Assembly (NCBI GenBank): GCA_024398055.1
Contig: CP073749.1
Span: forward strand, 4,402,594 to 4,466,593
Source of the DNA: a bacterium SCSIO 12741
GTDB lineage: Bacteria > Bacteroidota > Bacteroidia > Flavobacteriales_G > Salibacteraceae
Direction: 5' to 3'
Length of the DNA stretch: 64,000 nucleotides
The position numbers were made by a program, and so were the translations under genes. The notes beneath the pieces are model-generated. The model made no database searches. It worked only from the letters and a program-made list of their open reading frames with translations, and was not told where the DNA came from. This document shows, piece by piece, positions 26,357-31,586 of the stretch; positions within the stretch are counted from its first letter, which is position 1; every line of letters starts with the position of its first letter.

Positions 26357-26382
26357 CAAAAAAAAGGCCCCTAAAAGGGGCC
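26357..26382 (-). terminator. Rho-independent terminator of the five-gene exported-protein operon
   Basis: A perfect stem ggcccct / aggggcc with an AAA loop (26366-26382) is followed, reading on the minus strand, by nine T. It lies about 75 bp after the last gene of the operon (26458). Two further palindromes stand between it and that gene: TCAGATTGAATCTGA (26421-26435) and ATTGAATATTCAAT (26445-26458). Confidence 0.88.
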
Positions 26383-26457: not shown

Positions 26458-26973
26458 TTACTCCTCTCCTCCTCCATTGCTAAAGGATTCTGCAATTTCA
26501 TCCTCGTATCCGGTCATCATAACCAAACATCCTTTCAAGAATGACGAACCATCATCTGCGATGTAAGCAGGGATCAGGAAGTTTACATAAACCTGATAAA
26601 TGCCATCGTCATCCGGCTCGTAGTTAAATTGCTTTTCACTACTCTCAAAAGAGGCCAGAAGCTTACGTTTCTTTTCTCCTTGAGCCTTGTCATAGATCTC
26701 GATCTTAATGTCTTTTGGAAGTAATTCCGTATTGAAAACGATACGGTAACGAGCATCGTAGTACAGAGGAATACTCACTTCATCAATGTGGTTGTAACGT
26801 TTGTAAACAATACGCTTTACCACCATGTTGGTGTACTTGTAAGGCACCAGGGCTTTTCTGCATTTTACCACCACTTCATCTTTTGGGCAGTAGCTCGATG
26901 ATTGAGCCGAAACCCCAACGGAGCAGGCCATCAAAATGGCGATTAGCAGCACATACAGTTGACTCTTCTTCAT
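26458..26973 (-). CDS. Exported protein, family A (third copy), of the A-B-A-B-A operon
   Basis: A 171-residue protein with a signal peptide ending near 'VSAQSSS'. After two N-terminal cysteines ('CPKDEVVVKC') the body is beta-rich with family features 'KRIVYKRYNHIDEVSIPLYY', 'YRIVFNTELLPKDIKIEIYD' and 'FLKGCLVMMTGY'. The same blocks occur in the products of 27880 and 29348. I do not recognise a named family. It begins 6 bp after the lipoprotein gene 26980 and is the last gene before the terminator. It ends in acidic 'GGEE'. Confidence 0.6.
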   Translation of the reverse strand: MKKSQLYVLLIAILMACSVGVSAQSSSYCPKDEVVVKCRKALVPYKYTNMVVKRIVYKRYNHIDEVSIPLYYDARYRIVFNTELLPKDIKIEIYDKAQGEKKRKLLASFESSEKQFNYEPDDDGIYQVYVNFLIPAYIADDGSSFLKGCLVMMTGYEDEIAESFSNGGGEE

Positions 26974-26979
26974 AAGTAA

Positions 26980-27876
26980 TTAAACTTTAGTAATCTTTTC
27001 TCTCAGCCCAATAATGGTTTCGGAAAGTTGTTTTAGATGTTCTTCGGAAATCTTGTAATCCTTAAAGCTTTTCAAGTTTTGAGAATTCTTGTTTTCCTCT
27101 AATTGATTAAAAAATTTGTCGAGCTTCGCCAATTCCTTGGTAATCTCTTTTACCTCATCGGATTGATTCTCATTGGAGTTAAGAGCCTTAATCAGGTTCT
27201 CCAAAATCGTCATTTGCTCCACCAATCGTCCGGAAATAAAGTGTTGGTTATCCACGCCTTCAGCGTTTACACCTAAGTACATTCCTTCGATCCAGGCACC
27301 GCAGAAGATAATGTAGGTAACGTCGTGCATGTTGTTATCATCAACATACATGTCTGTACGTGCCTGAATATCTACCAGTACGTTTACAATGGAATCTTTG
27401 TTACCCAAACTGGACTCGAAACGCTTCATCAAATCTTCTGATTCGAATACCACACCGAAACCAATTTTATTGGACAACTCTTGAATGGCTACCAAATAGT
27501 CTCTCGCATCCTGGCTCTGACCGTTCAATACGATATAAGCCAAATCCGCTGAGTATACTCCGAAGTTGAGCAAACGAGAAGATTTGGTCGAGTAATTCTT
27601 AGCATTTTCTACCGGATTCGTAATTCCCTGAACATAGGTAAGTCCAGACTTTTGGAAAATAGATCCGATTTGCAGGGCCGATGGCAGGTAGAAAGTAGGA
27701 GTCGTTTCATCTTCTCCGGCTTCCGCCATTTCATCCAACAATTCATTTTGGGCCTTTTCAGCCTGCGACTGGTGATCTGGTCCGTTCCCTCCTTCTCCTC
27801 CACAAGAGGTGAAAGTAAGAACTCCAGCACCAAACATTAGATAGAATAAACTGTGCTTCATGCGATTTCGGTTCAT
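26980..27876 (-). CDS. Lipoprotein, family B (second copy), of the A-B-A-B-A operon
   Basis: A 298-residue, mostly helical lipoprotein (lipobox 'FTSCGGEGG'; alternative ATG at 27861). After an acidic linker come 'LPSALQIGSIFQKSGLTYV', 'LLNFGVYSADLAYIVLNGQ', 'GAWIEGMYLGV' and 'RLVEQMTILENLIKAL'. These blocks are shared nearly position by position with the product of 28393. The lipoprotein signal suggests attachment to the periplasmic side of a membrane. Gene spacing is 3 bp from the preceding family A gene and 6 bp to the next. Function unknown; the conserved aromatic and Asn positions in 'NFGVYSADL' look like a core or binding motif. Confidence 0.62.
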   Translation of the reverse strand: MNRNRMKHSLFYLMFGAGVLTFTSCGGEGGNGPDHQSQAEKAQNELLDEMAEAGEDETTPTFYLPSALQIGSIFQKSGLTYVQGITNPVENAKNYSTKSSRLLNFGVYSADLAYIVLNGQSQDARDYLVAIQELSNKIGFGVVFESEDLMKRFESSLGNKDSIVNVLVDIQARTDMYVDDNNMHDVTYIIFCGAWIEGMYLGVNAEGVDNQHFISGRLVEQMTILENLIKALNSNENQSDEVKEITKELAKLDKFFNQLEENKNSQNLKSFKDYKISEEHLKQLSETIIGLREKITKV

Positions 27877-27879
27877 GAA

Positions 27880-28356
27880 TTAATGTTTAAAACCTGAGTA
27901 AAAAATAACACAACCTTTCTCAATCACATTAGCATTAGAACTGTTGGAAGCAGGAATGATGTAATTGATATAAATACGGTTATGTGTTGAGCTTTTGGGA
28001 GGATCAAACACAAAATGTCTTTCGTGTGTGCTTCCTTCGAATATTTTCTTGCGACTCTGAACAGAAGCTGGCTTGTCATAGATCTCCACCTTCACATCCT
28101 GGTGCAGTCCTTCTGTATTGAACACGAAGCGGTAGTTCGCATCGTGAAACAGAGGAACTTCTACCTCTTTAAACTGACTTTCTCCTGAAAAGGTAATCTT
28201 GGTGATTTTAAAAGCGTAGTAATGGTAGGGTTTCAAATCTCCCTTACACTTCTTCTTCACCTCGTCATCCCATTTGCAGGAGTTCTTTACGGTTTGAGCC
28301 TGACCGGCTAAACTTCCGGAGATAATCAGTAATAGAATCAGAATTTTTTTCATCAT
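27880..28356 (-). CDS. Exported protein, family A (second copy), of the A-B-A-B-A operon
   Basis: A 158-residue protein with a signal peptide (residues 1-20, 'ILLLIISGSLAGQAQ'). Family A blocks are visible: cysteine pair 'CKWDDEVKKKC', 'FKEVEVPLFHDANYRFVFNT', 'VKVEIYDKP' and 'IEKGCVIFYSGF'. The spacing of the conserved GC near the C terminus relative to the N-terminal cysteines suggests a disulfide. It lies between two family B lipoprotein genes (36 bp after one, 3 bp before the next). Unknown function. Confidence 0.6.
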   Translation of the reverse strand: MMKKILILLLIISGSLAGQAQTVKNSCKWDDEVKKKCKGDLKPYHYYAFKITKITFSGESQFKEVEVPLFHDANYRFVFNTEGLHQDVKVEIYDKPASVQSRKKIFEGSTHERHFVFDPPKSSTHNRIYINYIIPASNSSNANVIEKGCVIFYSGFKH

Positions 28357-28392
28357 AATAATTTGTAGTTAGCACTAACCGTTCCGTCTATT

Positions 28393-29271
28393 TTATTGGG
28401 CACCTTCTTTTACGATGGTATTGCGAATTTCCTTCACCCGATTGTACAATTCTAAAAAGTGCTTGTCTTCCATCGCAGTCATGTTGAAGGAGTACTCATC
28501 CTCTCCTTTCAACCCTTCGATGCCATCAAAATAGTCTTGAAGGCTTTTCAATTGAGCATGAACAGCGTCTGACTCATTATTACGATTAGGTAGCAATTCA
28601 AGTCCCTTAACCAGGTTAGGCAAAATGGTCATCTGCTCTACCAGACGCTCACGCAACACTTCGTTGTCGCTGCTACGAGCCGCGTCTAAACCGATGTACA
28701 TTCCTTCCATCCAGGCTCCGGTAAAAATAATCATGGCTGAGTGCTCTTCATTGTTTTCAGCAATCAACACATCTGTATTTTCTTGAAATTCCAACATAAT
28801 GTTCAACATAGAGTCAACATCGCTGATGTTGGATTCGAATCTTTCAAAAATTGGGCCGGCATTGAAAATGGCTGACATTCCAGTCTCATCTGCCAAGGTC
28901 CGAATAGACTTTAGGTATTGAATGGATTGATTAGGCTGATCATTTAATACACAGTAAAATAGGTCAGCAGAGTACACCCCAAAGTTCATCAACTTTTCAA
29001 ACTTTGAAAAGTAGTTTCCTGTATTCTCAGGTGGATTTGTTACTCCATCAATGTAAGTAAGACCTGAGCTTTTAAAAATGGTATGAATTTGAAGAGCTGA
29101 AGGAATAATAAATTCTGGTTCATCCGATTCGTCCTCCATCACCACTACATCTTCGACCACGGCCGGGTCAGAATCTTCGACTGGCGTTGCATCGTTCGTT
29201 TCACCTCCGCAGGAGAACAAAATCGACCCGCACAAGACCAAAAGAAAAGCGTTGAATTTATTAGCGTTCAT
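28393..29271 (-). CDS. Lipoprotein, family B (first copy), of the A-B-A-B-A operon
   Basis: A 292-residue lipoprotein with lipobox 'LFSCGGE' and a very acidic linker ('VEDVVVMEDESDEPEF'). Shared blocks with the product of 26980 are 'IPSALQIHTIFKSSGLTYI', 'LMNFGVYSADLFYCVLNDQ', 'GAWMEGMYIGL' and 'RLVEQMTILPNLVKGL'. The rest is helical. It follows the first family A gene by 76 bp. No enzyme motif is visible. Partner or substrate is unknown; the alternation with family A suggests that one A and one B protein act together. Confidence 0.62.
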   Translation of the reverse strand: MNANKFNAFLLVLCGSILFSCGGETNDATPVEDSDPAVVEDVVVMEDESDEPEFIIPSALQIHTIFKSSGLTYIDGVTNPPENTGNYFSKFEKLMNFGVYSADLFYCVLNDQPNQSIQYLKSIRTLADETGMSAIFNAGPIFERFESNISDVDSMLNIMLEFQENTDVLIAENNEEHSAMIIFTGAWMEGMYIGLDAARSSDNEVLRERLVEQMTILPNLVKGLELLPNRNNESDAVHAQLKSLQDYFDGIEGLKGEDEYSFNMTAMEDKHFLELYNRVKEIRNTIVKEGAQ

Positions 29272-29347
29272 GATAGTTTTTTATGGGTGTTACAATTGCG
29301 AATATATAAATTTATGCCATTGACCAACGGCGGTCTGCGGCCCTTTT

Positions 29348-29875
29348 TCAAAAATCCAGATTCGAATATCCGGCCCCTAAAATCAAACATCCGCGGTTGC
29401 GAATACCGTTGTGAAATTCCTTATCCGCCGGCACTTTTACACTGATGTAAATTCGGGAACCCTCAAAATCTTTAGGGAGCTCATAACTGAAGTGATTGGA
29501 CGAAGATTCATGTAAGATCTTTGCCGAACTCATCTTGTGAGGTTTATCGGTAATATGAATGGTAACTCCGGTAGGCATCCCTTCCGTATTGATAATGAAC
29601 TTGTAACCCGTGGAATAGAAAATAGGTACGGCTATTTCCTTCACCTGATCGTAGGCTTTATAATGAATCTTGGTAGTGGTGATTTTGTCGAGCTTAAAGG
29701 GGGTAATATCAGACTTTATTCGCTCACAGGAGGCTTCCTTTTTGCACGCATCCTGAATGGTTAAGCTGGATTCACTCTCTGTTGAACCCTTTTTCTTCTT
29801 GTCGTGTTTTTGCCCCCATGCCATTCCCGCAAAAAGCAAAACAACCACAAGCAGTAGTGAAGATTTCAGTTTCAT
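29348..29875 (-). CDS. Exported protein, family A (first copy), of the A-B-A-B-A operon
   Basis: A 175-residue protein, first gene of the operon. A signal peptide ends near 'GMAWGQ', followed by a Lys-rich stretch ('KHDKKKKGSTESE'). Family A features: cysteines in 'ACKKEASCERI', 'VKEIAVPIFYSTGYKFIINT', 'VTIHITDKP' and 'RNRGCLILGAGY'. It is the most diverged of the three copies. The 208 bp upstream are shared with the divergent antiporter gene; I did not find a clear TAnnTTTG on this strand. Confidence 0.6.
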   Translation of the reverse strand: MKLKSSLLLVVVLLFAGMAWGQKHDKKKKGSTESESSLTIQDACKKEASCERIKSDITPFKLDKITTTKIHYKAYDQVKEIAVPIFYSTGYKFIINTEGMPTGVTIHITDKPHKMSSAKILHESSSNHFSYELPKDFEGSRIYISVKVPADKEFHNGIRNRGCLILGAGYSNLDF

Positions 29876-30031
29876 ACAACCGGTATTAACGTATTTTGAT
29901 CTGGGTTACAATCCAGGCTAAAAGTAGGTAAAGATGTGCTTTCTACGAACATTTCGCCAGATAATTATCAAAATCAACCAACATAAACTAATCAGCTGAT
30001 AAACAATAAATTACAAACACATTACACCCCA

Positions 30032-30060
30032 TTGCCATTATCAAAAGTTTTATATTTTTG
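30032..30060 (+). promoter_or_regulatory. Promoter of the Na+/H+ antiporter gene
   Basis: TTG at 30032-30034, an 18-nt spacer and TATTTTTG at 30053-30060 match the Bacteroidota promoter. The ATG at 30084 would be preceded by a leader of about 17 nt. Confidence 0.6.
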
Positions 30061-30083
30061 GAAGGATCGTATCATTTTTTAGC

Positions 30084-31586
30084 ATGGAAATTCTCAAGAA
30101 AACACTTTGGATATCGCTCCTGGCGATGTTATTGACGGCCCCATCGTTGGCCTATTCAAGTAGCAGTTCGGATGGCCTGAACAGCTCAGATTTAATTGCC
30201 TCGGTTGAGGTAGACCACCCTGAGGCTCAGGATGATTCGGGCAGTGCTGCCGAACCCGCAGAAGCCGAGCACGGTCATGAACATGGCGGACACGGCGGTA
30301 AAGGCATGAATATTCTGGACATTATAGCCATTTTAATATTCCTCGCTGCTGTCTTCACCTTTATCAACATTCATTACATCAAGCTCCCGGGTACCATTGG
30401 GCTCATGATGCAAGCCCTGGTTCTCAGTCTGATCATTGTGGGTATTGGCTTCGTTGTCCCCAGTTTGAAGGAGGGCGCTGAAGGCATTATGCGTAATGTG
30501 GACTTTAGTGAAGTACTGCTCAACATTATGCTGAGCTTCTTACTGTATGCTGGAGCGCTACATGTGGATATCGACAAACTGCGCGAAGAAGCGGCGTCTG
30601 TATTCATACTCGCTATTTTCGGTACACTGATCTCTACCTTTTTGATTGGTGGTATGATTTGGTACTTCCTTCAAGTTTTGGATCTGCCTATTCAGATTCG
30701 ATTCATTGAATGTTTATTGCTGGGTGCCCTTATCTCCCCTACCGACCCGATTGCGGTACTGGCCATTTTGAAAACCACTAACATTTCGAAGAACCTTCAG
30801 ATTAAAATCGAGGGAGAATCTCTGTTTAATGACGGTATCGGTGTTGTGGTCTTTTTGACCATTCTTGCGATTGCCACGGGCGGAAGCGGCCACGGAGGCG
30901 GAGAAGAAATCTCTGCGGGTACGGTTTCCCTTCTCTTCCTTAAAGAGGTGTTTGGTGGTGTGTTGCTTGGTGCCGCCTTTGGTGCACTGGGTTATTGGCT
31001 ATTGGTAATTATTGATAATGCTCACGAAGAATTGGAGGTGCTGACTACACTTGCTCTGGTTTTGGTGGGTACTCAAATCGCTGTTCACCTTCACGTATCT
31101 GCTCCTTTGGCCATGGTGGTTATGGGACTTATCATTGGTCGTGGAAACAGCCATGATAGCGAAGAAGAAGGAATTGCGGGTGAATATGTAATGAAATTCT
31201 GGCACCTGGTCGATGAAGCGATGAACGCCATCCTATTTATCCTGATCGGGTTGGAAATGCTGATCATCATTGAAGAATCTACCAGTACCTACCTCATTGT
31301 TGGGTTGAGCGGTATTCTTATCATCCTATTTGGACGTTTTATTGGTGTAAGTATTCCGGTATTGGTTTTGGACTTTTTCAAAAAATCGGCAAAGGGGACG
31401 ATACTTATACTAACCTGGGGAGGTCTACGTGGCGGAATCTCCATTGCCTTGGCCCTGTCCCTATCGGCTGATGATATTGGGCAGGATGTAAAATACTTGA
31501 TTGTAACCATTACCTACTGCGTGGTAGTATTCTCCATCCTTGTTCAAGGATTAACCATCGAAAAACTGGTTAAAAAGTACATATAA
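30084..31586 (+). CDS. CPA1-type Na+/H+ antiporter with His-rich N-terminal extension
   Basis: A 500-residue cation/proton antiporter with about 12 membrane segments. The ion-binding core is visible as 'ALISPTDPIAVLAIL' and 'IEGESLFNDGIGVVVFL', as in NhaP/NHE proteins. Unusually, the first about 75 residues form a signal-peptide-like helix ending in 'LAYSSSSS' and then an acidic and His-rich segment ('EAEHGHEHGGHGGKG') that would face the periplasm. It probably exchanges Na+ (or K+) for H+ for pH and salt balance, consistent with a marine lifestyle. Single-gene unit with its own promoter and terminator. Confidence 0.87.
   Translation: MEILKKTLWISLLAMLLTAPSLAYSSSSSDGLNSSDLIASVEVDHPEAQDDSGSAAEPAEAEHGHEHGGHGGKGMNILDIIAILIFLAAVFTFINIHYIKLPGTIGLMMQALVLSLIIVGIGFVVPSLKEGAEGIMRNVDFSEVLLNIMLSFLLYAGALHVDIDKLREEAASVFILAIFGTLISTFLIGGMIWYFLQVLDLPIQIRFIECLLLGALISPTDPIAVLAILKTTNISKNLQIKIEGESLFNDGIGVVVFLTILAIATGGSGHGGGEEISAGTVSLLFLKEVFGGVLLGAAFGALGYWLLVIIDNAHEELEVLTTLALVLVGTQIAVHLHVSAPLAMVVMGLIIGRGNSHDSEEEGIAGEYVMKFWHLVDEAMNAILFILIGLEMLIIIEESTSTYLIVGLSGILIILFGRFIGVSIPVLVLDFFKKSAKGTILILTWGGLRGGISIALALSLSADDIGQDVKYLIVTITYCVVVFSILVQGLTIEKLVKKYI

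Follow-up and report, generated by a model that had tools for sequence, protein, structure and literature searches.

We studied a run of five minus-strand genes in a 64,000-nucleotide stretch of the genome of the bacterium SCSIO 12741 (contig CP073749.1, positions 4,402,594 to 4,466,593; this whole stretch is called the window below). The genes encode two alternating families of predicted exported proteins, here called A and B, and in order of transcription they are A1-B1-A2-B2-A3, with intergenic gaps of 76, 36, 3 and 6 bp. A preliminary description of this DNA had proposed such a five-gene A-B-A-B-A unit, and we found its open reading frames and gaps exactly where it had placed them. The locus comprises the following features:

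29348-29875, minus strand: A1, family A exported protein of 175 amino acids, first gene
28393-29271, minus strand: B1, family B lipoprotein of 292 amino acids, with lipobox Cys21 and a predicted helical domain at about 54-290; pairs with A2
27880-28356, minus strand: A2, family A exported protein of 158 amino acids, predicted jelly roll, with near-invariant C27 and C149
26980-27876, minus strand: B2, family B lipoprotein of 298 amino acids; pairs with A3
26458-26973, minus strand: A3, family A exported protein of 171 amino acids, last gene
26366-26382, minus strand: terminator-like hairpin and T run at the operon end, from a sequence scan
29876-30083, minus strand: upstream region of 208 bp, common to A1 and a divergent antiporter-like gene
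30084-31586, plus strand: Na+/H+-antiporter-like gene, divergent from the operon

Neither family has been described previously, to the extent that our searches can tell. None of the five proteins from the window, and none of seven divergent members of the families, gave a Pfam or NCBIfam match above cut-off, and profiles of both families gave only chance matches, none of them significant, against PDB sequences. B1 and B2 are 38% identical, while A2 and A3 share 25-33% identity with A1. The sequence blocks by which the preliminary description had characterized the families (NFGVYSADL and RLVEQMTI in B, a C-terminal GC in A) are present. The N terminus of A resembles a signal peptide. The lipobox cysteine (Cys21) occurs in 93/93 B proteins, always with S, A or G at position -1, and 80/93 fit a simple lipobox pattern; by this test of N-terminal signal and lipobox, B qualifies as a bacterial lipoprotein.

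The conserved unit is a B-A gene pair

We searched 60 related Bacteroidia genomes, an uneven sample, with a B protein and an A profile, and we fetched 80 neighbourhoods in which A and B were assigned by iterated profiles. In these neighbourhoods, 76 of the 91 B genes are directly followed by an A gene in the same orientation, the intergenic distance ranging from -44 to 80 bp; conversely, a B gene precedes 76 of the 88 A genes. With broad profiles over the 60 genomes, A lies directly downstream of B in 129 of 150 cases, and B upstream of A in 129 of 149, among the matches listed. What is conserved is a B gene with an A gene after it, a lipoprotein and then its small secreted partner, and the earlier suggestion that the two families are conserved as neighbours is borne out. 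With the broad profiles, both families are present in the same 53 genomes and missing from the same seven (Fisher test, 2.6e-9, a value that ignores relatedness among the genomes). An apparent frequent occurrence of B without A, seen when a seed profile detected A in only 34/60 genomes, was removed by the broader profile, which detected it in 53/60. The two families are found in 15 of the 21 sampled Bacteroidia families, and a genome may have as many as eight copies of B. We looked for B on plasmids and found none.

The trees of the two families also agree. Among 78 adjacent pairs from 42 genomes, patristic distances of B and of A are correlated with r = 0.81. As a control for organism phylogeny, we shuffled partners within the same genome, and none of 2000 shuffles reached this value (maximum 0.70). 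Agreement of this kind would be expected of proteins that are in contact or serve one specific function. We consider it highly probable that A and B are functional partners, and the proposal that A is an exported partner of the membrane-anchored lipoprotein B is a natural reading of these data.

Viewed in this way, the operon in the window consists of two B-A pairs and a third A gene. The preliminary description had seen a duplicated A-B pair with an extra A; repeated pairs and an extra A are indeed present, but the pair runs from B to A, and the extra A stands at the start of the operon. Nor are the duplications recent. On trees, A1, A2, A3, B1 and B2 each belong to an orthologue clade of their own, common to the array-carrying genomes. 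Because each position has a separate clade, the duplications must be old and the positions have been kept apart; recent tandem duplication was accordingly rejected.

We found the array in nine genomes, counting that of the window, next to orthologues of the Na+/H+-antiporter-like gene. It has the order A-B-A-B-A in eight of these and B-A-B-A-B-A in the ninth (G008). The A1 clade lacks an upstream B in the same number, eight of nine, and the first A of the G008 array groups with A1. Given that B precedes A in the unit found elsewhere, A1 may have been the partner of a first B that was lost. Alternatively, the extra first B of G008, which has a long branch on the B tree, may have been gained in that genome. 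The antiporter-like gene itself has a His-rich N-terminal stretch and is syntenic with the operon in the array-carrying genomes. In the shared upstream region (29876-30083), we sought TAnnTTTG-type and scored sigma-70 promoters for A1 and found none. At the other end, the closing terminator that had been proposed corresponds to the GC-rich hairpin with T run (GGCCCC-TTTTA-GGGGCC-TTTTTTTT), terminator-like sites overall being no commoner than in shuffled sequence.

Further copies lie elsewhere. In the window's own genome, a divergent pair of B genes without A is located beside thrS (L033:4384-6191; C1, about 5.01 Mb). This thrS-adjacent pair is kept in five genomes (L033, L093, L094, L096 and L099), and its members form two separate fast-evolving clades. 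The same genome has another B-A pair (L034:4876-6346; C1, about 1.63 Mb) among TatD-, asparaginase- and dprA-like genes, a setting that is syntenic in several relatives. Other B-A clades also have fixed settings (L076, L077, L083 and L112), e.g., between polA and yicC-gmk-nadD; another such setting is after a multi-pass membrane protein of about 650 amino acids.

Co-inheritance with a TerB-ABCG-type exporter

In many relatives, the gene that follows B and A encodes a protein of about 1,020 residues that starts MSERILKALMQLFAI. It contains a TerB domain (residues 8-135), an ABC ATPase domain (ABC_tran, PF00005, 275-417) and an ABC-2 membrane domain (ABC2_membrane, PF01061, 567-758). By hydropathy, five membrane segments are predicted within roughly the first 756 residues and a last one at 980-1013, with a stretch of about 220 residues separating it from the others; by analogy with ABCG topology, the stretch would be a periplasmic insert. 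The closest relatives of solved structure include ABCG1 and ABCG2, which align continuously over 261-759. This similarity, together with the order of ATPase then ABC-2 domain, places the protein among exporters of the ABCG/white type, and we refer to it as the exporter.

We searched for the exporter using its N-terminal 250 residues. It was detected in 51 of the 53 genomes that have B and A, and in none of the seven that lack them; the two positive genomes without a match are assemblies of 54% and 82% completeness. At the level of taxonomic families there is no discordance, with 15 positive and 6 negative for B/A and the exporter. One genome (G012, 99% complete) has none of B, A and exporter, while G019 and G023, of the same genus, have all three, which is an apparent co-loss. 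In a phylum sample of 296 genomes, where only the top candidates per genome were scored, strong B, strong A and exporter matches coincide exactly, being confined to one set of five genomes; there were further weak matches, a partial B in two genomes and A in one. The neighbouring antiporter gene, which served as a control, is present in 34/60 genomes and has no B/A-like profile.

The genes are also physically linked. In 28 of 51 genomes, no more than 6 kb separates the exporter from B or A; these genomes represent all 15 positive families, and our own rough estimate of the expected proximity is about 2%. A common arrangement is an operon of B, A and exporter, in that order, with gaps of 20-200 bp. 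In G008, the exporter is about 4 kb from the six-gene array, beside smpB (a gene named from its sequence), and its reciprocal best match in the window's genome (G000) is the copy beside smpB. We think it probable that B-A pairs function together with this exporter.

It is possible to account for the linkage differently, by supposing that B-A is a stand-alone sensing or ligand-binding module of the periplasm or surface, whose exporter neighbour reflects shared history and common envelope regulation. Such a module would suit the several B-A clades whose conserved settings have no adjacent exporter (polA/yicC-gmk; TatD/asparaginase/dprA), as well as the differing copy numbers of B-A and exporter. 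However, linkage in all positive families, the apparent co-loss in G012, the exact co-occurrence in the phylum sample and the dissimilar profile of the control gene all speak against it, and we regard it as unlikely.

At some loci and in some lineages, genes encoding a SiaB-family (DUF6272) kinase and a SiaC phosphoprotein are found beside the exporter. SiaB-family genes are present in 45 of the 53 B/A-positive genomes and in 0/7 negatives, so that eight positive genomes are without them; the link to B-A and the exporter is suggestive, not universal. At L104:8-4113 and L106, SiaB-like, SiaC-like and TerB-ABC genes form one unit adjoining B(-A). The kinase and phosphoprotein genes recall the SiaABCD system of biofilm signalling in Pseudomonas aeruginosa, but here they adjoin an exporter, we noticed neither SiaA nor SiaD at the inspected loci, and the partner is an ABC exporter with B-A. 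In open-access full texts, we found no relevant paper on TerB-ABC, DUF6272 or SiaBC with ABC exporters in Bacteroidota.

Predicted folds and cellular placement

Structures were predicted for B1 and A2 with AlphaFold, using shallow alignments (9 and 12 rows) of sequences from the window and related loci only. The A2 model is a jelly-roll beta-sandwich with a mean predicted local distance difference test score (pLDDT) of 86.6. Its best structural matches are GOLD domains (p24/TMED, SEC14-like, ACBD3), with Z of 8-9 over about 92-106 residues (best 9.2, 7rrm), although many other jelly rolls score within 1-2 Z units of the best. Identity in these matches is 7-14%, and A has no sequence match to GOLD in Pfam. 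Moreover, the GOLD matches are eukaryotic, whereas A is secreted by bacteria and has conserved cysteines. On the basis of the model, A would be a small, presumably periplasmic jelly-roll partner of B.

The preliminary description had given A two N-terminal cysteines. One of these, C27 in A2 numbering, is nearly invariant; the second is found in only about half of the A proteins. C27 and C149, the latter being the cysteine of the C-terminal GC, are jointly present in 89/91 A proteins. C27 is near the mature N terminus and C149 is on the last strand of the predicted fold; their joint conservation suggests that they likely form an intramolecular disulfide. In some genomes, A has an extra acidic, Trp-rich N-terminal stretch (e.g., WMEEDSWGDSESADPWG) ahead of the conserved domain (L041:5305-5931, L043:1154-1810 and L045:4686-5423).

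The placement of these cysteines raises the idea that A subunits, joined by disulfides, build a fibre or coat on the surface, with B anchoring it and the exporter or a general secretion route delivering them. The alignment of the A2 model with the endospore fibre subunit Ena2A (Z 8.9, 100 residues, 3.3 A) is of much the same quality as those with GOLD domains, and an operon encodes several different A proteins. Nevertheless, jelly rolls are very common and many unrelated proteins score close behind, the joint occurrence of both cysteines is what one intramolecular bond would predict, and a generic fibre subunit need not co-evolve with the adjacent B as A does. We therefore consider a fibre quite improbable.

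The B1 model is all-helical over about 54-290, with pLDDT mostly at about 80-96, and a Foldseek search with it gave no significant match. Since EfeO-like chains are among the top matches (probability 0.57 and 0.35, E about 0.5 (0.55)), and the imelysin-like 3pf0 aligns with Z 4.7, it might be proposed that B is a distant helical lipoprotein of the M75/imelysin-EfeO type that binds metal or haem, and that the pair serves in metal uptake or storage. We find this very improbable. The E-values are non-significant, the Z scores (including 4.8 for VIA) are no higher than helical bundles reach by chance, and alignments of this type cover only about 100-136 residues. In addition, B does not match the imelysin Pfam family, and its near-invariant residues, which include G98, W187, E189 and Q213, contain no histidine.

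Lipoproteins of Bacteroidota can carry a surface-export signal (lipoprotein export signal, LES) directly after the cysteine, either K-(D/E)2 or similar to SDDDD/SDDFE (PMC5080379). Positions +2 to +4 of B are mostly G, S, E, D or N and have no LES-type consensus, with the caveat that the published signal may not be that of this lineage. Because no motif of the published type follows the cysteine, we tentatively place B facing the periplasm.

A candidate envelope module

Our preferred reading is that the operon belongs to an unnamed envelope module, in which the helical lipoprotein B and the jelly-roll protein A work with a dedicated TerB-ABCG exporter in a Lol-like layout. We assign this reading a probability of roughly 0.5. 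Lipoprotein transport by the Lol system employs the ABC transporter LolCDE, the soluble carrier LolA and the lipoprotein acceptor LolB (PMC11885536). Both systems would combine an inner-membrane ABC transporter, a small exported soluble protein and a membrane-anchored lipoprotein, a likeness of layout only, without homology. LolA and LolB share one fold, whereas A is predicted to be a jelly roll and B to be all-helical. The exporter is a single TerB-ABCG-type chain instead of LolCDE. A and B gave no match to Lol models, and the exporter gave ABCG-type matches, the LolD match being a generic one to the ABC ATPase and far below cut-off.

In the relay that we envisage, the inner-membrane exporter would extrude from that membrane a molecule of lipid-like or otherwise amphiphilic nature, which A-B complexes would accept, carry or dock at lipoprotein B. 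The several B-A paralogues per genome could serve different cargoes or sites, and some lineages might use a SiaB/SiaC phospho-switch to regulate the exporter from the cytoplasm. This relay, which is drawn by analogy, is possible but tentative. Still more doubtful is its fullest form, a trans-envelope export machine of Bacteroidia in which the lipid-like substrate of a TerB-ABCG exporter, often controlled by SiaB/SiaC, is carried through the periplasm by multiple paralogous B-A pairs, possibly a different cargo by each.

It is important to consider several points that weigh against a module of this kind. While pairing, co-inheritance and parallel evolution of B and A, as well as exporter linkage and co-occurrence, are computational observations, the A-B complexes, their periplasmic location, transport and the substrate class are inferred. 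The predicted folds of A and B have no lipid-binding signature. The exporter is outside the window, both copies in this genome being more than 1 Mb from the operon. In many genomes, B/A copies outnumber exporter copies (5 B, 4 A and 2 exporters in G000), and some of them may do something else; some B genes, such as the divergent pair adjacent to thrS, have no A. Finally, SiaB-family genes are absent from the same seven genomes that lack B and A; therefore these negatives differ by lineage, and the co-occurrence is partly lineage-driven. Overall, the interpretation in the preliminary description is partly supported.

Among known exporters, the ATPase and ABC-2 membrane domain align in one stretch with the half-transporters ABCG1 and ABCG2, and the protein matches the pigment precursor permease model TIGR00955, below cut-off. 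The regulatory N terminus in the cytoplasm, along with the linked phospho-switch, is also reminiscent of Rv1747 and its kinase (PMC5549992; PMC3908365), with TerB in place of FHA. An FHA-ABC exporter of the Rv1747 type was rejected, as no FHA model was found in the four regions that we scanned (about 141-257). The exporter differs from ABCG and Rv1747 exporters in its insert before the last membrane helix and in its two linked exported partners.

Two families without a Pfam or NCBIfam entry are tied to each other and to one exporter by gene order, co-inheritance and parallel evolution. The link to B-A offers a hint of function for TerB-ABC proteins, on which we found no paper in open-access full texts. 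If a machine does form, it would be an unrecognised envelope transport route in a large bacterial group, possibly with a SiaB/SiaC phospho-switch.

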